Below are positions 1-26,669 of a stretch of DNA of 32,852 nt, one piece after another. The notes under the pieces are model-generated. The model did not search any database. It saw nothing but the letters and a program-made list of their open reading frames with translations, and had not been told where the DNA came from. The position numbers and the translations under genes were made by a program. Numbering within the stretch: the first letter of the stretch is position 1; each line of letters opens with the position of its first letter. The DNA lies in contig JALVQA010000004.1 in assembly GCA_027031495.1 (NCBI GenBank), positions 23,218 to 56,069 of the forward strand, read 5' to 3'. This DNA comes from Candidatus Moraniibacteriota bacterium. GTDB lineage: Bacteria > Patescibacteriota > Minisyncoccia > Moranbacterales > GCA-2747515.

Positions 1-127
1 CCAGCTGTACCAGATGAATTGTTTTTGTCAATAATGTCCGTAAGGAAACGTACTGCATCATTGAAGATAAATCGTTGGTTTGTGCCGGCAACATCAAAGG
101 TTGTTGAGCCGTCGGATGTGACTGTTG
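1..127. repeat. Direct repeat copy A (127 bp identical to 907-1033)
   Basis: Read by eye: ccagctgtaccagatgaattg...gtcggatgtgactgttg occurs identically at 907-1033 (offset 906 bp = 302 codons). Confidence 0.95.
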
Positions 128-3100
128 CGGTAAGGTAGTTTGTAAGATCATAGCCAAGTTTAAATTGCGGCGTTGTTGTTGATGTTACGGAGAGACCTGT
201 CGCCTTTACCGTACCGCCAACGTCCAACTTTTCTGTCGGAGATGAAACACCGATTCCAACATTGCCGTCTTTAGAAATTCTCATACGCTCAGCAGATGAA
301 CCGGCACTACCGTCATGTGTGTAAAATGCGATCTCTTCATCATTAGACGATCCGTTCCACGTCGTAAGAATCCTCATGCCTGTTAAATCGCCATTGATAG
401 CCGTACCGAAATCTGTCTCAAGCGTCGATGCACCGATATTTGTATATGTGGCATATTTCGCGCCAATGAACCGCCCACGGTCAATGCGCACATCACCACC
501 ATGTATCTGAAGCATGTCTTGCGGTGCACCTGCCACACCAATCCCAACATTACCACCGCTAAAGATTGTGTTACCACCGCTAAAAGTAAGACTGTTACCA
601 CTCATCGTTACAGACCTGTTACCCGAGAGTGTGCCGTCATGATTGTAGATGTTGTACGTATACGGCGTAAGATTGATGTTTGTTGTCGTACCGGCCTCAT
701 CCGTGTAGTCAAGAGAGTTTGCATTGAGCGCAAGTGACGTTACTGTCTCATAGAGTGATTGTGTTATACCGTCTTCGTTTGAGTAATCTGCAATTTTGTG
801 CTTTGTGACAGAGCCGAGCGCATCTGTGATGTTTGTTGTTGTCTCAAGCGCGGCAATGCTTGTCCACGTTGTACCGAGACCTGCGCCACCGGATGTTAGT
901 ACTTGTCCAGCTGTACCAGATGAATTGTTTTTGTCAATAATGTCCGTAAGGAAACGTACTGCATCATTGAAGATAAATCGTTGGTTTGTGCCGGCAACAT
1001 CAAAGGTTGTTGAGCCGTCGGATGTGACTGTTGTTGTAAAGTAATTTGTACTGTCATAGCCGATACGTGCCTGTGGCATTGTTGTTGAACTGTTTACCAA
1101 CAGACCGCTCATTGTCATGTTGTCAACATTGACAATGTTATTTCCGCCCATATCAAGATTTCCTGTCATGGTTCTACCACCATCGGTTCGCAGGTACTGC
1201 GGATGATCATCATTTGTGAGATCCGTCAATGCGGAGTGTGATGCGACAACGCCTGTTGTGCCATTTGTGCCAAACCCAAACACTCTCTTGAAGTTTGGGC
1301 GCACATCATACAATCTATCCGCAATGGTAATATCACCCTGCTGTGAAACCACAGTTGCAAGATATACCGCGCCGGCATCTATGATAGATTGTGAAATGCT
1401 TGGCAACGGCGCCTTTTTTGCCTCATCTTCCGTAGCGTACTCTGCCTGACCGTAGATGTAGTGCACATTACCATCAAGCGTGCGCAATACGAGATCCTTC
1501 TTCCAATATCCGGCTGTTAATGATACAAGTGCTGATGATTGATTTTGACTTGGATCGTTATAGTGACTTGTAGAAACACGATTTGCATCCGTTGTATCTT
1601 GCACCCATCCGTTATCCGCACTCTTATACCACTTTAAAAAAGTCGTTGCATCCGTCACTGTGAAATCTGATAAGTTTGAATAGATCGTGCCACCCGTTAT
1701 TTTCAATGTACGTGGCGATGTGTCTTCCGATACAAGATTACCGCTCTCTACAAGATTGCCGATCGCCTCACTCACAAACTCATTATTGCGACGCGAATAA
1801 TCACTTGTATAAAAAGGATTTGACGAAAGAAGTCCTATATCCGTATTGCCGGCAACCGTATAAACGTATCCAAGGTAAATGTAGTTATCAAGATTCGCTT
1901 TTGTACTTGTTATATATGGATTGCCGGTGCTATCAATGTAAATAAAGTTGTCGCCGTCATACGGCATTGTTACCGTTTGTGTACTCCATGTTACGTCATA
2001 CAATTTATGTGTTACATCATCAATAACACCTTCACCCGCTGCGATTTGCACCTGATTACCGCCGGCGTCGGAAAGACTGCCACCAGAAACAAGACCGGTT
2101 GACCACCGCGTCGTTGCATTTTTACCAAGCGTAATCAGCGCAGCTTCCACATCATCGGTCACATAGTAGTTTGCACCATCTTGAATCGGTATGTCACTTG
2201 CCGACACCTGATTTGCACCTGTTCCCCATGCAATTTTTGCATCCGTTATGCTACCGTCTTTTACGTATAATTGGTTTGAACCATTGACGCCAATTGTTAT
2301 GTTGTCAAAAGAGGTAGAAAGTGACCCACTATTTAATACAAGACCACTTCCCGTCAAGTCGGTAAATGTCTCGCTATTGATATTGACACCGGCATTGAGC
2401 GTTGCAAGACCTGTTGTCGACAACGTACCGGCAATACTCGTATTACCGAAAGTATCTGCTGTGAAATTCGTATTTTCCACCCACGATGTGCCATTCCACC
2501 GCAGTGTTGCGTTTGCTGTTGTGCCAGTACCAACTGTTGCAATCGTTACCCAATCTGTTGCTGTGCCCGTCGATGTAAGTACTTGCCCACTACTTCCAAC
2601 GTCACCATCCTTATCCCTAAGCGCCGACAAAAGCGTCACGTCCCCCGTAAACCTGCCGGTCCCCGCAACATCAAGCTTGTATGATGGCGCGCTCGTCACA
2701 CCAATGCCAATGTTGCCACTGCCACCAAAAACGAGATTATTACCACCAAGTACAACAGTTCTATTACCGGCAAGTGTTCCATCTGCCGAATAAATGTTCG
2801 ATGTTGAAATGGTAGATGGTACCCAGTTTGTACCGTTATAGGCAAGTGCTTGCCCGCTGGATGCGCCGGTCGTTGAGACGTCGCTAAGATTGCCGAGTGT
2901 CGCATTGAGCGAGAATATGTTGCCACTTAGCGATAAACCTGTGCCGGCTGTGTACGACACGCTTGCCGGCGCCCAATTCGTACCATTCCATACGAGCGCA
3001 TAACCATTAGATGCACCGGTTGTCACAACATTGTTCAAGTCATTAAGCGATGCATTGAGCGAGAATATGTTGCCACTTAGCGATAAACCTGTGCCGGCTG

Positions 3101-3764
3101 TGTATGTCGTGCCGCCGCCGGCGCTGCCCGGTACCCAGTTTGCGCCATCCCACTTGAGAAACTGCCCTGTAGTAGGCACAGTTGTCGCTGTATCAACATC
3201 AGCCAATCTGTTGATGAAAAGCGAATTGTCCGCAATTTTCTCTTGTGTAATACTACCATCTTCTATTTTTGTAGGTAAACCGGAAAGGTCAACACTGTGC
3301 GACTTCTTTTTGTCCCTCTGGAGAGAGATTTTCAATACACCATCGTCAGAAAGAGAGAATTTCGTTATTTTCTGATGATCTCTATCTTCCGGTTTTTTCC
3401 ACACAATGCGCGTTCCGCCGGCAGATGTCAGCACTTCCCCCTCATTGCCCGGTGGCAACGAAAACGCTTCTTTCTCCTCGCCACTGCTATCAGAAAGATG
3501 TTGCAGTGATGAAAGCGCCACACCATCACCACCATCACCATCTGCAGATGCAGCCGATGTGTCTGTACGCGTATTGTCTGACTTTGCAGTATCATCTTTG
3601 TGTGCATTGTCACCCTGCACTGACTCGTGTGTCTGTTGCTGACACGCATCACCACTGCACACAGACTCATGTACAAAAAAAGAATCACTCTTCCACAAGA
3701 AAAAGAGCACAGCAATAAGTGCAAGAGCGGAAACGGTAAAAGATGTTAGAGAAAACGACCTCAT
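1..3764 (-). CDS. Very large membrane-anchored surface protein with phage tail-fibre-like repeats (partial; continues past the left edge)
   Basis: Continuous minus-strand frame from ATG (revcomp of 3762-3764) to position 1 with no stop in my translation: MRSFSLTSFTVSALALIAVLFFLWKSDSFFVHESVCSGD...; repeated tail-fibre-style segments such as YTAGTGLSLSGNIFSLNA, GNVGIGVSSPTEKLDVGGTVKATG, LTNDDHPQYLRTDGGRTMTGNLDMGGNNI. Absent from the supplied ORF track, probably because it has no stop in the window. Confidence 0.85.
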   Translation of the reverse strand, partial: MRSFSLTSFTVSALALIAVLFFLWKSDSFFVHESVCSGDACQQQTHESVQGDNAHKDDTAKSDNTRTDTSAASADGDGGDGVALSSLQHLSDSSGEEKEAFSLPPGNEGEVLTSAGGTRIVWKKPEDRDHQKITKFSLSDDGVLKISLQRDKKKSHSVDLSGLPTKIEDGSITQEKIADNSLFINRLADVDTATTVPTTGQFLKWDGANWVPGSAGGGTTYTAGTGLSLSGNIFSLNASLNDLNNVVTTGASNGYALVWNGTNWAPASVSYTAGTGLSLSGNIFSLNATLGNLSDVSTTGASSGQALAYNGTNWVPSTISTSNIYSADGTLAGNRTVVLGGNNLVFGGSGNIGIGVTSAPSYKLDVAGTGRFTGDVTLLSALRDKDGDVGSSGQVLTSTGTATDWVTIATVGTGTTANATLRWNGTSWVENTNFTADTFGNTSIAGTLSTTGLATLNAGVNINSETFTDLTGSGLVLNSGSLSTSFDNITIGVNGSNQLYVKDGSITDAKIAWGTGANQVSASDIPIQDGANYYVTDDVEAALITLGKNATTRWSTGLVSGGSLSDAGGNQVQIAAGEGVIDDVTHKLYDVTWSTQTVTMPYDGDNFIYIDSTGNPYITSTKANLDNYIYLGYVYTVAGNTDIGLLSSNPFYTSDYSRRNNEFVSEAIGNLVESGNLVSEDTSPRTLKITGGTIYSNLSDFTVTDATTFLKWYKSADNGWVQDTTDANRVSTSHYNDPSQNQSSALVSLTAGYWKKDLVLRTLDGNVHYIYGQAEYATEDEAKKAPLPSISQSIIDAGAVYLATVVSQQGDITIADRLYDVRPNFKRVFGFGTNGTTGVVASHSALTDLTNDDHPQYLRTDGGRTMTGNLDMGGNNIVNVDNMTMSGLLVNSSTTMPQARIGYDSTNYFTTTVTSDGSTTFDVAGTNQRFIFNDAVRFLTDIIDKNNSSGTAGQVLTSGGAGLGTTWTSIAALETTTNITDALGSVTKHKIADYSNEDGITQSLYETVTSLALNANSLDYTDEAGTTTNINLTPYTYNIYNHDGTLSGNRSVTMSGNSLTFSGGNTIFSGGNVGIGVAGAPQDMLQIHGGDVRIDRGRFIGAKYATYTNIGASTLETDFGTAINGDLTGMRILTTWNGSSNDEEIAFYTHDGSAGSSAERMRISKDGNVGIGVSSPTEKLDVGGTVKATGLSVTSTTTPQFKLGYDLTNYLTATVTSDGSTTFDVAGTNQRFIFNDAVRFLTDIIDKNNSSGTA
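907..1033. repeat. Direct repeat copy B (127 bp identical to 1-127)
   Basis: Same string as copy A, inside the same reading frame. Confidence 0.95.
2902..2954. repeat. 53-bp direct repeat copy 1
   Basis: gcattgagcgagaatatgttgccacttagcgataaacctgtgccggctgtgta, repeated at 3052-3104 (offset 150 bp = 50 codons). Confidence 0.9.
3052..3104. repeat. 53-bp direct repeat copy 2
   Basis: Identical to 2902-2954; encodes the repeated YTAGTGLSLSGNIFSLNA. Confidence 0.9.
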
Positions 3765-3966: not shown

Positions 3967-3995
3967 TTGACATATTATTGCAAGTGTGCTACAAA
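3967..3995 (+). promoter_or_regulatory. Sigma70-like promoter for the OmpA-fusion gene
   Basis: TTGACA (3967-3972), 17-nt spacer, TACAAA (3990-3995). Confidence 0.65.
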
Positions 3996-4046: not shown

Positions 4047-4064
4047 GCCCCGAGGAGGTGGGGC
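4047..4064 (+). promoter_or_regulatory. Hairpin presenting the Shine-Dalgarno sequence in its loop
   Basis: gcccc (4047-4051) - gaggaggt loop (4052-4059) - ggggc (4060-4064), 3 nt before the ATG at 4068. Confidence 0.6.
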
Positions 4065-4067
4065 ATT

Positions 4068-5933
4068 ATGAAAGGACTACTTCTTTTTTGTCTTTTTATT
4101 CTTATTGCTGGTGGCGCCGGCGCTGCCACGACGACAGCGTCGGTTGACATTACTCCGTTCCTCAACATTAGTGGGGACGGAGTGAAGAATTACATCTACG
4201 CCGGCGAGAATCCGCCGTGGGTGCCGGAGAAGTACTGCGGTACCTTCACGGTACCAGGTACGATAAATGCCGGCGAGGTTGTCATCACGGAGGATGACAT
4301 CGACTTCGGCGGCGGGTCCGTTGTTGTTTGCAACGGTCCGTTTGAGCCGAATGTCGGCTTCGTGCCGTATCTCACCTTCAGCCTCGAGAATGCTCTCGAG
4401 GTCGCGCGCAGTGAAGGAAAATATATTCCTCGTTGCGACGAGGGTGAGGTCTGCACCTACACGGTGCGGATCGGCATGAGGGATGCCGTACCGGAAGAAT
4501 TCTTCCGGGCACACACCAATGAGAACGCACCGCGCGGCGGTGTAAGTATCAATGGTACCACGCCGGAAGAGTTCCGGGTACCGAGGAAATGGCGGCTTGT
4601 AGTCGTCCGCGCGACGTCTGAGTCGCTGACGGTTTCTGTCGGCGATCTCAACAATAACGCCGGCGGCTACTCGCCGCCAGACCTCATTGAGCAGGGCACC
4701 CTGGAGGCCGGTGGTTCCGGCGGGGTGATGATGATCGCGCGCTATGCGCAACTCACCATCACCGTCGAGAAGAAGCCGGAGCCAACGCCGGAGCCGATTG
4801 AGCCGACACCAACGCCAACGCCGACCGTAACGGTGGAGACACCGGAGGGTCGGCTCGTGGCAAACATCGGCGGTGGCAGCATGGGCATGATGCTCTTGCC
4901 GCTGCTACTCGTCGGCAACATTTTCCGCCGACGCGGTGCTGCAACACTGCTGGCGGCACTAGTGTCCTTGGTCGGCGCAGCCGGTACCATGCATGCCGAT
5001 GAGGCGGCAGCTATCAAGCTGTACGCCAACGGCGGTATCGGCGTCGGCTATACGAGGCCCCGAGTAGAAGAGGCAAATGGACGCTTCTTCGAAATTAACG
5101 GCTCCGAGCCGAACGGGCATCTGCTGCCGGCATGGACGCTGGGCGCAGGGATTAAAATGGGTGAACTGGGGAAGGCGTGGCGCGCTGGCGTGCGTTACTC
5201 CGACCTCGGCGCGAACTGCGCCGATGCCGGATGCGTTAACTACGGGCTCTGGACCCTTCATGTGGGGAAAGAGCTCGGGCAATGGCGCATCTCGGCCGGC
5301 GTGACGCGCTGGCAATCGGGGGAGGTGCTTGGCGGCGTCGCTGACACCGCTAATCCCGATCTCAAGGATGGTAGCTACTCCCCCTTCGTGGGGATAAGCT
5401 ACGCCTTCGGCAAGGAGGGTCCTGTCACCCTTGGCGTCAGCGGGCAGTATCATGCCCTGGATGCCAGTGGGGCGTACCTCACCGCCGAGGTGTCATCCGG
5501 CGAGACACGGGAGCCGACGCCTGTCACGCCAGCACCTGCACCAGCGCCGGCCGCAGTGCCGGCGCCACAGCCCACACCTCCGGCGATCGTCGAGGCGCCG
5601 GAAGAGCTTCGCATATTCTTTGGTGTCGAGTCGGCGCAAATCGCGCCGGAAGACATCGAAGAGATGCGGCGGCTCTTTGATGGAGCTGACGAAGTTGTCA
5701 TCAAATGCACTTCCTCGCGGTTCTGGCGCTCAGCCAAGACCGAGAAGGAGATGTATGGAAACAACTTCGCGCTCTCCGATAAGCGGTGCGGGGCGGTCGC
5801 CGACGCGCTCGTCGGTGTTGTGCCAAAGGTAAGACTCATCCCCCGTGGGGCAAAGGATCTCCCCTTCGCACCGCCAACGTCGCAAAAAAATCAGAGTGCA
5901 CATATCATGGAAGAAACAGTGCACTCTGAATAG
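4068..5933 (+). CDS. Two-module secreted/envelope protein: N-terminal secreted domain, GlyGly-CTERM-like tail, internal signal-like segment, beta-barrel-like region, Pro/Ala linker, OmpA-like C-terminal domain
   Basis: N-terminal signal peptide MKGLLLFCLFILIAGGAGA; internal GGGSMGMMLLPLLLVGNIFRRRGAATLLAALVSLVGAAGTMHADEAAAIKLYANGGIGVGYTRP; C-terminus LRIFFGVESAQIAPEDIEEMRRLF...NFALSDKRCGAVADALVGVV...PRGAKDLPFAP matches the OmpA-like layout. Confidence 0.8.
   Translation: MKGLLLFCLFILIAGGAGAATTTASVDITPFLNISGDGVKNYIYAGENPPWVPEKYCGTFTVPGTINAGEVVITEDDIDFGGGSVVVCNGPFEPNVGFVPYLTFSLENALEVARSEGKYIPRCDEGEVCTYTVRIGMRDAVPEEFFRAHTNENAPRGGVSINGTTPEEFRVPRKWRLVVVRATSESLTVSVGDLNNNAGGYSPPDLIEQGTLEAGGSGGVMMIARYAQLTITVEKKPEPTPEPIEPTPTPTPTVTVETPEGRLVANIGGGSMGMMLLPLLLVGNIFRRRGAATLLAALVSLVGAAGTMHADEAAAIKLYANGGIGVGYTRPRVEEANGRFFEINGSEPNGHLLPAWTLGAGIKMGELGKAWRAGVRYSDLGANCADAGCVNYGLWTLHVGKELGQWRISAGVTRWQSGEVLGGVADTANPDLKDGSYSPFVGISYAFGKEGPVTLGVSGQYHALDASGAYLTAEVSSGETREPTPVTPAPAPAPAAVPAPQPTPPAIVEAPEELRIFFGVESAQIAPEDIEEMRRLFDGADEVVIKCTSSRFWRSAKTEKEMYGNNFALSDKRCGAVADALVGVVPKVRLIPRGAKDLPFAPPTSQKNQSAHIMEETVHSE
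5891..5929 (+). repeat. 11-bp perfect inverted repeat at the 3' end of the OmpA-fusion CDS
   Basis: tcagagtgcac (5891-5901) / gtgcactctga (5919-5929), 17-nt loop. Confidence 0.8.
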
Positions 5934-5949: not shown

Positions 5950-5976
5950 GCGGGTGGCACCAACGGTGCCACCCGC
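5950..5976 (+). repeat. 12-bp perfect GC-rich hairpin downstream of the OmpA-fusion CDS
   Basis: gcgggtggcacc - aac - ggtgccacccgc; no T-tract follows directly. Confidence 0.85.
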
Positions 5977-5986
5977 AGAGAGATAA

Positions 5987-6016
5987 GCGGTATAATGGTA
6001 TATATGCCGCTTTTTT
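5987..6016 (+). terminator. Rho-independent terminator
   Basis: gcggtata (5987-5994) / tatgccgc (6003-6010) stem with one T.G wobble, followed by TTTTTT. Confidence 0.65.
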
Positions 6017-20450: not shown

Positions 20451-22268
20451 TTATATTTCGTCATTCTCCTTTCTCCTCTTAATACCCAAAATCTGCTCTG
20501 GGTTTGATGTAACAATTTGATCTTCGCTATAAGATGCAACAACTTTAATAGCAACATGCTTTGTGCCGGCAAAAAGAATACCCTCACCAACACTACTTTC
20601 GAGAAGAAGAAACTTTTCATGGTCAGTCAGAAAAAATGTTTCCTGCACCGTTTCAATCGATGCCGGCGACTGTTTTAGGAGAAGTTGCAGTGATGAGTTT
20701 GTTACAATTGGTCGCCCATATTGCGAGCCCATAAAATCGGAGATGTCCTGCGTAATTGTCGTAAGTCCTGTATAGTACTTACGACACCGTTTTGCAATAC
20801 CAAAAAGAAAACTTGCAGCATCCTCTTTCTGCATCATCACCCACGCCTCGTCAACAATGACAAGACGGCGGCGCAACTCTGCGCGCATTTTGTCCCATAT
20901 AAACTGCAGAGCAATGTACATTGCAATCGGTCGCAATTCGTCTTCCAAGTCGCGAATATTAAACACTATCAGCTCACCGTTTACTTTAACATTTGTATGA
21001 TTATTGAGAAAGCCAGAAAATATTCCGCGCGTATACTTCTCAAGACGCGCCGATAGCGACTCGGCACCCTCCATATTTTCCAAAACTTGCCCGAGATCGG
21101 CCATTGTCGGATAGGTCTCCGGTGACAATTTACTGAAATCAGTATCCTCCGTTATATCACGAATCGCATATGTTTCTCGCAAAGCGCTATCTAAAATAGA
21201 ATCCTCTTCCGGCGTTGTTGAACCAAGCATAATGCGCAAAAGACCGATAAGCATCGCTATATTGGAACGAAGAACCTCTGACGGACTCTCGTCTTCGCCA
21301 ACCGATGGCAAATCAAATGGATTGATAAACGATTTTGACTTCAATGACAATTTAATAAATGTGCCGCCGACTGTATCGCAAAGATATTTGTATTCATTTT
21401 CAGGATCAATCACAAAAATCTGCGTCCCCATCATCATCGATCGCAAAATTTCCAACTTCACAGCGTAGCTCTTACCGGCACCGGATTTTGCAAAGATGAC
21501 CATGTTTGCATTCGGCTGTTTAAAACGATCAAGAATAACAAGAGAATTATTATGACGATTGATACCATAAAGAATACCGTCATTCGATGAAAGTGTTGAT
21601 GATACAAAGGGGAATGTTGTTGAAAGTGGCTGTGTATTAAGATTGTTGCCAACATCAAGCTCGTCATTTGCAAGTGGCAATGTTGATGAAAAACCCTGTT
21701 CCATGCGCAAAACAGCCGGCTTAATGAAGACAAGTTGCGCCTCAAGCATTGATGTAATTTCCTTTTCAACTTTTGATAATTTTGCCTTGTCCTCAGCGTA
21801 AATTGTGATATACAATCCAAAACGAAAGAAATGTTCTGTTCCTTGTAATAATCGATCGCGCAATTCTTCAATATTACGTAAAGCTGTTTCAAGAACAGGG
21901 TTGCGTACCTTACCCTCTTCTCGCTCAATATTAATCTGCGATTGCACTTGCGTTACACTTCGCCGTAACTGTTTAACAACATCACTTGTCCTCATTGGAT
22001 GGATAAAGTACGCAATATCCATTGGCAAATCAAGGTTGATTATCGGCGAAAACCAGTTTGTCTGTAGGTAGCGAGGATACGCTGTTATAAAAAGTGTTTT
22101 TGCATAAACCTCACCTATCTCCAAAAACATTGGCGAGATACGCATAGCGCTCGGCGCAATCAATCCGCGCACAGTTGCAACGCCACGCTGATAGATATTC
22201 TCAGCCTCGAGAAGATCATCAGCATTCATTACAGTATGTGTTTTTTCTTTTTTTGCAAAAAGGCTCAT
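20451..22268 (-). CDS. virB4-like: VirB4/TraC-type type IV secretion ATPase
   Basis: Walker A VIFAKSGAGKSYAVKLEIL, FVIDPENEYKYLCDTVGG, Walker B RRLVIVDEAWVMMQ, ITQDISDFMGSQYGRPIVTNSSLQLLLKQ. Confidence 0.92.
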   Translation of the reverse strand: MSLFAKKEKTHTVMNADDLLEAENIYQRGVATVRGLIAPSAMRISPMFLEIGEVYAKTLFITAYPRYLQTNWFSPIINLDLPMDIAYFIHPMRTSDVVKQLRRSVTQVQSQINIEREEGKVRNPVLETALRNIEELRDRLLQGTEHFFRFGLYITIYAEDKAKLSKVEKEITSMLEAQLVFIKPAVLRMEQGFSSTLPLANDELDVGNNLNTQPLSTTFPFVSSTLSSNDGILYGINRHNNSLVILDRFKQPNANMVIFAKSGAGKSYAVKLEILRSMMMGTQIFVIDPENEYKYLCDTVGGTFIKLSLKSKSFINPFDLPSVGEDESPSEVLRSNIAMLIGLLRIMLGSTTPEEDSILDSALRETYAIRDITEDTDFSKLSPETYPTMADLGQVLENMEGAESLSARLEKYTRGIFSGFLNNHTNVKVNGELIVFNIRDLEDELRPIAMYIALQFIWDKMRAELRRRLVIVDEAWVMMQKEDAASFLFGIAKRCRKYYTGLTTITQDISDFMGSQYGRPIVTNSSLQLLLKQSPASIETVQETFFLTDHEKFLLLESSVGEGILFAGTKHVAIKVVASYSEDQIVTSNPEQILGIKRRKENDEI

Positions 22269-22291
22269 GAACTTTTTTAGATTAAAAAATG

Positions 22292-22984
22292 TTACAGTCC
22301 CTCTACGTCTACACGTGACAGTTCCGAAAGTGATGTGCTCGTAAAGAGTGATGGGTTATATGCGTTATACAGTAGCTCAAGTATTTCCTCTGTATCGAGT
22401 AATACACCACGAACACCAGTGCCGGAAAGCGCCATTGTTATATGATCAACGCGCTGAAAGAGCTGATTTTTATATGTTTCAAATTTTTCGCGCCTTGCGC
22501 TAATAACGTGTTCCGGATGAAATGCCGCCATCATGCGTGCAAAGAAACCAGTTTCCTTACTCTCTACCGGCGAAAACGGCACAACAACATAGAAAAATTT
22601 TGACATGATATTTGTTACATCTGTCAATTCTCTAATGAATAAACGATATTCTGCAATCTGCGTCCGTATTGCCTCGCTCTCCGTACGTCGCTCACGATCA
22701 TTGAGCATTTCTATATATGGTTCAATATTAAGTTTACGCGAGCTGATAAGTATCTGAAGTGGAAAATCAAGTGAATTGAGAAAATTTTGATACTGCACAA
22801 TAATAGCATCTTGCTCTTCTGATGATTTGAGATCAAAATTGATCGATGACATCATTACAATAGCCCGCAGTGAGCCATTGCGCAAAACAATGACACTATC
22901 ATGTACTTCGGCAACATCAACATACTTCAGCGTACTCGCACCTGATGCGCCGGATGCTAATTTTTTCTCATGTAATCGCTCCAT
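22292..22984 (-). CDS. TraC/VirB4 N-terminal-like protein (separate ORF)
   Basis: VAEVHDSVIVLRNGSLRAIVMMSSINFDLKSSEEQDAIIVQYQNFLNSLDFPLQILISSRKLN is typical of a VirB4/TraC N-terminal domain; directly upstream of the ATPase ORF. Confidence 0.75.
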   Translation of the reverse strand: MERLHEKKLASGASGASTLKYVDVAEVHDSVIVLRNGSLRAIVMMSSINFDLKSSEEQDAIIVQYQNFLNSLDFPLQILISSRKLNIEPYIEMLNDRERRTESEAIRTQIAEYRLFIRELTDVTNIMSKFFYVVVPFSPVESKETGFFARMMAAFHPEHVISARREKFETYKNQLFQRVDHITMALSGTGVRGVLLDTEEILELLYNAYNPSLFTSTSLSELSRVDVEGL

Positions 22985-23015
22985 AAAATCTATATCTCTT
23001 TTTGTTTATATCAGT

Positions 23016-23483
23016 TTACTTTTTATTCTTTGTTGCATGACTTTCAAGTATCTCAATAGCACGATCAGTTCTGTGGTGCCCCTCGCTATCTAATACATCA
23101 GCCAACACAGCAATATCTTCAATGGTCATTGAAGCACTTTTTTTATAAAATTGCGCATCATATTTATCGCGTTTCTTTGTAATCTTTTTCTTTTGCCAAC
23201 CAACCGGACGACGCCATACGTAAATTTTTGGCTGGATAAGAAACGTGAGTGCATATCCAACAAACGTGACAAGTGATACGCCATGTGGTTTATAAAACGC
23301 AAATGCGCCAAACAAAAGGAATAGGAAAAACGCAACAACATAAAACGTTGCCTTATTATCAAAGAGATTCCACAATACAATTAATACAGCCCCGAACGCA
23401 AGCAACCATAAAAACTGTCGCGCCGTCAACGGACCGGCAATCTTGTCCTCAACATCAATATATTGCGGTACACTAAAAAGCAT
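23016..23483 (-). CDS. prgI-like: PrgI family membrane protein (T4SS-associated)
   Basis: SVPQYIDVEDKIAGPLTARQFLWLLAFGAVLIVLW..., two TMs, KPHGVSLVTFVGYALTFLIQPKIYVWRR. Confidence 0.85.
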   Translation of the reverse strand: MLFSVPQYIDVEDKIAGPLTARQFLWLLAFGAVLIVLWNLFDNKATFYVVAFFLFLLFGAFAFYKPHGVSLVTFVGYALTFLIQPKIYVWRRPVGWQKKKITKKRDKYDAQFYKKSASMTIEDIAVLADVLDSEGHHRTDRAIEILESHATKNKK

Positions 23484-23492
23484 ACGATTTCT

Positions 23493-24551
23493 TTATTTAT
23501 ATCCTACAGATGCGGAGTTATTGGCACGCATTTGTGCAGACTCCTTTTCCTGTGCGAGTTTTTGTCCAGATGAAAACGTCACATACCCCATTGGTTGCCC
23601 CTTATCTTCCACTGCCTCATGAGCATTTTCATTCTTCTTTTTTAGTATAGCATCTTTTTGCATCGTGCGCGTGTGCTGATGCTGATTGCTGTGCATGCCC
23701 TGTATTTGTTTGCTATTGTTATCAGCCGTCCGCATATCGCCATGTGCATTACGTTGCTCACTATGACGACCTTCCCGTTGAGAAAAAGTAGATGGTTGAG
23801 TGTTTTTTACGCCAGTACGACGTGGTACTTTTTGCGCTACAGGAAAGACAACTTCCTCGCGCTCAATATCAACGACCAACGGCATATTCTCGTCAATAGA
23901 TTTTAACACCATTGCCACACGTTGCCGTTCCTCTGCGCTCAGCGATCGCGTATTGCGTCCATGAAACAAGTAATTACCACGCTCAATCGCCGTGTGTTTT
24001 CCTTGTCCAACAGAAAGACGGTAATCAGTAATCCAATTACCGATTGTGCCAGGGCTATATTTTTGTGTGCCAGCAACCATGATATTTGACTTTGTAATGA
24101 TCTGATTTTTTACACTCTTAAAGCGCTCAAGTGTTTCACGCAATGTCATGCGCACTTTTGTTTCCCTTGCCGGCTTCTTTATAATTTGCTCAGTTAGAAT
24201 GCGTGCTATATCTTGTGCCTTCAGTGGTGCAATACCAAGATTTTCTATAAAGTAGTCGGCAAATTTCTCAAGTGGCAGTTCGCCAAAATAATAAAGACGT
24301 ATTGCGCGCGCAAGAACAGCCATTTCTTCCAAACTGAAACCAGCACGCTCACCAATACGCTGAATGATCCGCATTGTTCTTTCATCCGCCATAATACTCT
24401 TTACCTTCTCCGGTAGTGCGTAAAAACGTCGCCAACGTGCGCGCCACTGCCGCTCTGTCTCTCCAATATCAGGCACAATCATTGGCAAAGTAAATTTCTG
24501 CACAATGATTGGATCTATTTCTTGTATTGATTTTTGATATGATTGCGTCAT
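23493..24551 (-). CDS. Hypothetical cytoplasmic protein of the T4SS-like operon
   Basis: 352 aa; helical N-terminal half (FSLEEMAVLARAIRLYYFGELPLEKFADYFIENLGI), disordered Q/H/N-rich C-terminus. Confidence 0.65.
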   Translation of the reverse strand: MTQSYQKSIQEIDPIIVQKFTLPMIVPDIGETERQWRARWRRFYALPEKVKSIMADERTMRIIQRIGERAGFSLEEMAVLARAIRLYYFGELPLEKFADYFIENLGIAPLKAQDIARILTEQIIKKPARETKVRMTLRETLERFKSVKNQIITKSNIMVAGTQKYSPGTIGNWITDYRLSVGQGKHTAIERGNYLFHGRNTRSLSAEERQRVAMVLKSIDENMPLVVDIEREEVVFPVAQKVPRRTGVKNTQPSTFSQREGRHSEQRNAHGDMRTADNNSKQIQGMHSNQHQHTRTMQKDAILKKKNENAHEAVEDKGQPMGYVTFSSGQKLAQEKESAQMRANNSASVGYK

Positions 24552-24584
24552 ATTTTCTCACTTTTTTACATACACTCTACATCC

Positions 24585-26669
24585 CTATGTACCAGATCCC
24601 CTGTTTCTCTCCCTGACAGCGCGCTGAACATCAGCATCAGTTGCGTGTGTAATAATATTAGAGCCACTACCAGTTTGAACATTATTGTTATCTACTGTAT
24701 TTGCACTGACATTTGCATCAGCTGTTGTTGCGCTACCACCAGTATTAACATTAACATCTGTTCTGACATCATTGTTAATAGTAAAATCCATCCCCTCAAT
24801 ACCTCTTCTAATATTATCACTCACATCTCTCAATACTTCCGCATTACCACCTTTTAGGGCATCACGCACCATCTGCGCATCAAGCACAACACTATTGTCA
24901 ACATGCTCCTTAAGCATTTCGCGAGCATTACTATGAAGCGCATCAAATCTCTTCTGTTTACCAAGCTCTTCCGCACCAATTCTAAATTCATCTCGAATAA
25001 TTTCTCTCATCTTAACATCATCACCGCGTGCTTCTCTGTCAATTCTATACGCTGCCACAACATCTCTGCGACCATCGTTGCGCACATTTCTTTGAATCTC
25101 CTTTGCGAAATCTTCCCGCAAATTCTCCGGTACAAGAGCTCTCTCAATTACCTTACCTCTTTCATCCGTCCTACCTTCAATAAGGGACATCGCTGTATTC
25201 ATCCTTGCAACGCTATCAATCATGCCCTTCTGTGCAGCTAAGCGTGCAGCGGCAACACGACGTTCTTTTGATTCCCCTTTATCTTCCATTACCTTAACCA
25301 ACTGTGAACCGGTTAAGCCAAGATCTTTCAATTCCTTCTCCGCTGCTGCAAGAGATTTTGCAAAAGACTCTAATTGCACCTTACTTCTACCAATAATTGC
25401 CCTCTGTGCAGACATTTGCTCTGCGTAAGCATTTGCTTTTTGCTCAAAGCGATCTCGCCGCCGCTGTGCACTCACTTTAAACGAGCGAGCAAATCCTGTG
25501 GCACGTGCCGCGCCAGGCATTGCCTTTAATGTTCCAATAGATGCATACTTACCACCCGTTGCCAATGCTCTACCGGTTTTCCTTGCCATACCCTGACCAA
25601 AACGTGTCACCATTTGTGATGCCCCATCCGATGTTGCATTAGTCATAATAATGCCGGCCCATAAAATTACAATTGGAATCATGAGAAAAACAAGATTGGT
25701 CATATTACTCGCTTGCGCCTCATTTGTTGTCGCTGTTTCTGTCGGATGCATAACGCTATTCACACTCGTAGGATCAAACGCCACCTTATGTACATAATGC
25801 ATGTATGACATGGAAAAAAACAGCATAAACACAAGAATAGGACCGGTAAAGGCATACTTAAAGAGATTTTGCCACCATTGTTGCGCATATCCTTGCGTGG
25901 ACGGTAAAATCGCACCAACAAAGCCAATCGGTGAAAAGATCATCAGTATAGCAAGTGCAACGAGACGCACAACGAGTAAACCGGCAATGGTTATCATTGA
26001 TATGCCATAGAAAAATGCAAAGATAATTGCCATGAAAATATAAGATGTTTCTTGATTAGCAACTTCTCTCTTTGGAATAAAGACGTCAACGATGTTCATA
26101 GATTTCCCGAAAATTTCCAGAATCTCAAATCCGTTTTCCGTCTTTGGAAAAAGATTATTCACAAAGAAGTACATTAGAATATTTGATGCATCAATAATAA
26201 CTTTTGCAATTGGCAGACTAAAATTTACCAAAAGTGCCATAATGATCAGACGCGTAAGCACATTACGCAAATGATAACGCTCAATCTGAAAAATTGTCGC
26301 AAAAGCACTAAAAAGCAAAATCAATATGAATGAAAGATTCAACACATCACGCACAATCGTCCAGATCAGATCAATTACTTTATTGCCAAGAATTTCTTTA
26401 ACATTATTCGTATCCAGTACATAGGTAAAAAGTGTCGCACCAGCAACGCCAAGTAACCCAAACATTTGCGCAACATAGTAAAGAAACCAATTAATAGCAG
26501 AAGTAAACGCTTCTTTTATAGATGCTGCATGCGCCGTCGCAAAATTAAAACCACTATCACTGTAAAAAAAGTGACCCGCTACGACGAATGCAAAAAATAC
26601 TCCCACGCCCACTTGTAACCACTGTTGTATTTTCCTTTTTTCTACGCAAAAAAACTTCCGCACACGCAA
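24585..26669 (-). CDS. VirB6/TrbL-like polytopic membrane protein
   Basis: Signal-like N-terminus, at least six hydrophobic segments including VVRLVALAILMIFSPIGFVGAILP...WWQNLFKYAFTGPILVFMLFF, long charged helical C-terminal tail. The ORF caller uses a TTG start. Confidence 0.8.
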   Translation of the reverse strand: MRVRKFFCVEKRKIQQWLQVGVGVFFAFVVAGHFFYSDSGFNFATAHAASIKEAFTSAINWFLYYVAQMFGLLGVAGATLFTYVLDTNNVKEILGNKVIDLIWTIVRDVLNLSFILILLFSAFATIFQIERYHLRNVLTRLIIMALLVNFSLPIAKVIIDASNILMYFFVNNLFPKTENGFEILEIFGKSMNIVDVFIPKREVANQETSYIFMAIIFAFFYGISMITIAGLLVVRLVALAILMIFSPIGFVGAILPSTQGYAQQWWQNLFKYAFTGPILVFMLFFSMSYMHYVHKVAFDPTSVNSVMHPTETATTNEAQASNMTNLVFLMIPIVILWAGIIMTNATSDGASQMVTRFGQGMARKTGRALATGGKYASIGTLKAMPGAARATGFARSFKVSAQRRRDRFEQKANAYAEQMSAQRAIIGRSKVQLESFAKSLAAAEKELKDLGLTGSQLVKVMEDKGESKERRVAAARLAAQKGMIDSVARMNTAMSLIEGRTDERGKVIERALVPENLREDFAKEIQRNVRNDGRRDVVAAYRIDREARGDDVKMREIIRDEFRIGAEELGKQKRFDALHSNAREMLKEHVDNSVVLDAQMVRDALKGGNAEVLRDVSDNIRRGIEGMDFTINNDVRTDVNVNTGGSATTADANVSANTVDNNNVQTGSGSNIITHATDADVQRAVRERNRGSGT

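Follow-up and report, generated by a model that had tools for sequence, protein, structure and literature searches.

A compositionally foreign gene with the anatomy of two exported proteins in tandem in a Patescibacterium

How does a gene that ends like an outer-membrane protein come to lie in the genome of a Patescibacterium, when the absence of an outer membrane has been proposed for these bacteria (PMC12102498)? The question is raised by ORF 4068-5933, on the forward strand of a 32,852-nucleotide stretch of DNA (hereafter, the window) within the 189-kb contig C4 of a 1.00 Mb genome (21 contigs, 98.2% complete, 0.6% contaminated). This genome belongs to Patescibacteria, as a sequence-only reading of the window had guessed, and its XerC finds its best matches in Moranbacteria and other Patescibacteria. 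We propose, with a probability of roughly 55%, that the ORF is a horizontally acquired gene of diderm, probably proteobacterial, type, coding for a single polypeptide in which two exported proteins follow one another, in a Patescibacterium that lacks an outer membrane.

ORF 4068-5933 is a real, continuous coding sequence. On inspection, its reading frame runs for 621 codons with zero internal stops, which random sequence of the same composition would achieve with a probability of about 1e-9, and there is no N across 3.7-6.4 kb of the window. GC at the three codon positions (0.64/0.50/0.68) differs between positions as in real genes. Continuity of the contig, on which the sequence-only reading had made its case depend, is likely from the assembled sequence: the frame is open, the ORF lies well inside the contig and codon usage is common to both halves. 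The parts of the ORF and its flanks are the following.

3967..3995, + strand: promoter-like TTGACA-17-TACAAA with TG before the second hexamer, a putative site read from the sequence
4047..4064, + strand: short GC hairpin GCCCC-GAGGAGGT-GGGGC, 3 nt ahead of the ATG; its loop contains the ribosome-binding site
4068..4124, + strand: signal peptide MKGLLLFCLFILIAGGAGA, from hydropathy
4125..4770, + strand: N-terminal secreted domain of no recognisable family (no match in Pfam, NCBIfam or PHROG)
4771..4868, + strand: Pro/Thr/Glu linker, from the sequence
4869..4934, + strand: internal GlyGly-CTERM-like segment GGGSMGMMLLPLLLVGNIFRRR (TIGR03501, 14.8 bits, 22/22 positions)
4935..4997, + strand: second signal-like segment GAATLLAALVSLVGAAGTMHA, from hydropathy, with putative cleavage
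4998..5504, + strand: predicted eight-strand barrel-like region (strand amphipathicity p 0.018; no family match in Pfam, NCBIfam or PHROG)
5505..5612, + strand: Pro/Ala linker, from the sequence
5613..5930, + strand: OmpA-like C-terminal domain with core NFALSDKRCGAVADAL, from profile scores and a signature pattern
5891..5929, + strand: 11-bp inverted repeat that spans the final codons (fold z-score -7.7)

This succession of signal peptide, secreted domain, P/T/E linker, CTERM-like, second signal-like, barrel-like and OmpA-like segments upholds the two-proteins-in-one anatomy that had been claimed from the letters. Hydropathy gives three helical hydrophobic stretches, at residues 1-26, ~263-287 and ~289-310, the last two separated by RRRG; beyond them there is a single weak hydrophobic stretch at residue 575. 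Single-sequence structure predictions reached mean pLDDT values of 42 and 39, and both fold searches were discarded as meaningless at pLDDT ~40.

Signals for expression surround the frame. The promoter-like site sits in AT-rich, host-like DNA, and is missing from the automatic scan because its second hexamer lacks the final T. At the other end, three successive hairpins (5891-5929, 5950-5976 and 5985-6012), with a T run after the last, likely form a terminator region. These signals bear on the idea that the ORF is dead weight, that is, a decaying transferred fragment whose frame is open only owing to recent transfer. The lack of any homolog, the divergent OmpA core and the missing partner machinery would all fit such decay, but 621 stop-free codons, a strong period-3 signal in both halves and the presence of promoter-like site, ribosome-binding site and terminator hairpins make it improbable. 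A match to Rfam BTH_s19 was rejected, being far under the cut-off, antisense and in the linker.

The first of the two proteins resembles a family whose tail is a sorting signal. In GlyGly-CTERM proteins the signal peptide is the only helix that precedes the tail, a simple topology that leaves the basic cluster inside (PMC3237569), and those recognised by TIGR03501 are processed by rhombosortase (PMC3237569, PMC6219818). Like them, the ORF has a signal peptide, a secreted domain, a Gly/Ser motif, a hydrophobic helix and a basic cluster, with no other helix ahead of the CTERM-like segment. The resemblance noted earlier holds in that all 22 positions align, and falls short in that the score of 14.8 bits lies under the 15.5-bit cut-off of TIGR03501 (GlyGly_CTERM); the segment is nevertheless the genome's only match to this model at E <= 1. 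Unlike in the known proteins, it is not C-terminal: it occupies residues 268-289 of 621 and has 332 aa behind it. Unlike in GlyGly-CTERM systems, the genome has no rhomboid match.

The second protein recalls OmpA-type outer-membrane proteins, which combine an eight-strand barrel with a PF00691 domain. Like E. coli OmpA, this half has a signal peptide, a barrel-like region of ~170 aa, a Pro/Ala linker and the core NxxLSxxR...V...L. The barrel, also claimed earlier, stands as a tendency: residues 311-490 contain more amphipathic strands than their own shuffles (p 0.018), but the pattern is weaker than in E. coli OmpA, whose barrel was equalled in 0/1000 shuffles, while five control segments gave 0.50-0.97.

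For the end of the chain, family profiles stay under their cut-offs. PF00691 OmpA gives 13.0 bits on the excised C-terminal segment, against a cut-off of 27.2, and no match in the genome scan; TssL-OmpA (17.9 bits) and MotB (12.3 bits), both sub-cut-off, fall on overlapping residues. In fact, the eukaryotic family FAM60A outscores OmpA here (E 1e-4), so such sub-cut-off scores prove little; FAM60A itself, a eukaryotic nuclear family, was dismissed as matching by chance. The signature is more telling. The OmpA core lies at residues 566-581, in the right place and order, and among 1,179 screened ORFs the pattern N..LS..R...[VIL]...[LIVF] was found only in OmpA-domain proteins and in ORF 4068-5933; it arose in 17/100,000 shuffles. 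A custom OmpA model ranked the C-terminal segment first against 2,000 shuffles and the other ORFs of the genome, by a narrow margin, and the final codons, KNQSAHIM, may be aligned by hand to the KNRRVEIv end of OmpA. Because the signature core NFALSDKRCGAVADAL is exact and absent from the non-OmpA ORFs among the 1,179, we lean towards an OmpA-like domain. The earlier assignment is in this way sustained by a specific core and by weak signals that repeat, and left short by the profile score. Function is another matter. When the peptidoglycan-binding residues are compared with those of E. coli OmpA and of Patescibacteria OmpA domains, the Arg is aligned and the Asp is not, in a part where the alignment is uncertain. 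Unlike in OmpA-type proteins, then, the diaminopimelate-binding TD motif seems to have been replaced and lost; the apparent loss of its Asp makes wall binding doubtful, and an OmpA function of the domain looks doubtful from its sequence. Two further differences from these proteins are the other secreted domain upstream in the same chain and a genome without an Omp85 match.

Does such a domain speak for an outer membrane? The sequence-only reading had called a barrel plus OmpA domain unexpected in Patescibacteria, and the hint of such a membrane that this implies does not survive the genome searches. In the 98% complete genome, rhomboid PF01694 had no match at E <= 1 (14/14 control genomes gave matches), nor did Omp85 PF01103 at E <= 1 (controls positive), so that CTERM sorting and insertion of an outer-membrane barrel by known routes are unexpected. 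Across the class, OmpA domains occur in 15/387 genomes and Omp85 in 3/387, all three in one family. Several of the OmpA matches appear by eye to be fusions of a substrate-binding protein to OmpA, and others, in G002 (short contigs, 30-33% GC) and G181, look like contaminants. An OmpA-like domain is thus uncommon but not unheard of in Patescibacteria, and OmpA-like or barrel-like genes found there are no proof of an outer membrane. The ORF, likewise no evidence for one, makes most sense as a borrowed gene. The three Omp85-like matches (L154, L155 and L156, frames of 994-1136 aa, from three Patescibacteria genomes of family f17) possibly represent outer-membrane-type barrel machinery in that lineage.

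The main clue to borrowing, absent from the sequence-only reading, is that the ORF stands out as an island of foreign composition. Its GC is 61% and its GC3 0.68; the genome has ~44% GC, and the mean GC3 of its larger ORFs is 0.41 (sd 0.09). GC climbs just past the signal-peptide codons and drops within the last codons. Codon usage of each half correlates at 0.28-0.34 with the genome background and at 0.57-0.83 with three other GC-rich genes, which are set between host genes: NhaD and a lipoprotein on contig C1 and a TAXI-type gene on C8. This single composition across both halves speaks against a mid-ORF join of two unrelated organisms.

Of these companions, the NhaD sodium:proton antiporter (L053:2338-3735; GC3 0.75) is 70% identical to that of Sulfuricella denitrificans; it is a likely proteobacterial transfer, and we count it as support for an inflow of proteobacterial genes. 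The lipoprotein-like gene (L053 703-1875) adjoins it. The TAXI-type TRAP binding protein (L060:14041-15042; GC3 0.72; family score sub-cut-off) lies beside a nusG-like gene and was found in 0/383 other Patescibacteria genomes. The foreign NhaD gene is also preceded by a leader, GCCCCATGGAGGTGGGG, similar to the hairpin of the ORF; the leader was rejected as a genome-wide motif, since apart from the variant at NhaD the genome has a single copy of the 21-nt form with up to 3 mismatches. Elsewhere on C1, a dCTP deaminase-like gene, named by eye (L052:18767-19312; GC3 0.79), has the most foreign codon usage among the sampled ORFs.

Foreign composition could also betray an assembly or binning chimera, in which a piece of DNA from a co-occurring, GC-rich bacterium ended up in a Patescibacteria contig. 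GC does shift sharply at both ends of the ORF, and the gene is missing from every relative searched. However, AT-rich DNA of host type reaches over the promoter and into the first codons, the compositional borders coincide with the start and the terminators of the ORF, host DNA lies on both flanks within a single 189-kb contig, other contigs bear further foreign-looking genes, each alone amid host genes, and reported contamination is low (0.6%). We consider a chimera improbable.

Where, then, did the gene come from? No homolog of the ORF was found among 97 relatives, in genome contigs searched by peptide words, or, for the whole protein or its parts, in viral contigs, phages or plasmids; matches in the 387 class genomes were discarded, being low-complexity hits that fall mostly on the Pro-rich linker. 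Since no donor homolog was found, in searches that reach distant proteobacterial chromosomal genes poorly, we infer transfer of the ORF from composition and analogy. The genome also contains a GC-rich prophage (G000 contig C6, ~111.9-139 kb; L182, L183) with genes for integrase, terminase, portal, head protease, major head, head-tail adaptor and tail proteins. Its GC3 is similar to that of the ORF, which leaves room for a virus or another Patescibacterium as donor. The ORF could also be a surface protein of Patescibacteria's own, or virus-borne, that came to look CTERM-like and OmpA-like by convergence. Sub-threshold family scores, the prophage and the 520-620 aa OmpA-domain fusions of other Patescibacteria point that way; the last resemble the ORF in size, probable export and OmpA-type end. 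These fusions, most of them substrate-binding-like plus OmpA by eye, nevertheless differ in having a binding-protein-like N-terminal part and clear OmpA scores, and in lacking the CTERM, second signal and barrel; none of them resembles the ORF. The OmpA signature core is moreover highly specific, and a PHROG match is absent. Convergence therefore strikes us as unlikely.

Under the borrowed-gene reading, two exported proteins would have become fused, and the product would now be exported and anchored at the membrane or wall. The first signal peptide would export the N-terminal domain until translocation is halted at the GlyGly-CTERM-like helix, whose RRR cluster would stay in the cytoplasm. The second signal-like helix would then restart export, bringing the barrel-like and OmpA-like part outside too, either tethered via a helix hairpin or released through signal peptidase cleavage behind TMHA, with the OmpA-like domain coming to rest at the cell wall. 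With rhombosortase and signal peptidase, two separate surface proteins would result; here, where no rhomboid was found, the first would stay anchored. This topology, with its cleavage and wall binding, is predicted from sequence features, and the architecture of internal CTERM and re-export that they suggest is unusual. A bolder proposal, and in our view a long shot, is that the arrangement works like a polyprotein, the internal CTERM-type stop-transfer helix and the second signal peptide letting one chain deliver two surface proteins. The Patescibacterium, living as an epibiont, would have retained this architecture and put it to use, perhaps in imitating or engaging a diderm host's envelope.

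If the borrowed-gene reading is true, a diderm envelope gene has entered a Patescibacterium without the machinery for it, and the ORF, NhaD and the TAXI-type gene become concrete markers with which to follow genes passing from likely hosts. The internal CTERM followed by a second signal offers a testable topology.

The ORF has notable neighbours. Divergent from it (window 3-3764, - strand, and the part of C4 immediately ahead of the window) lies a large, repeat-rich, tail-fibre-like adhesin gene, with a run of N, possibly an assembly gap, inside it at the left edge of the window. An integron or cassette, suggested by the adjacent XerC, was rejected, as the XerC-UvrD neighbourhood recurs in relatives. 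Farther along (window 20451-26669, - strand) are genes recognised by eye as VirB4-like and VirB6-like components of type IV secretion; such genes have been described for Patescibacteria (PMC12102498).
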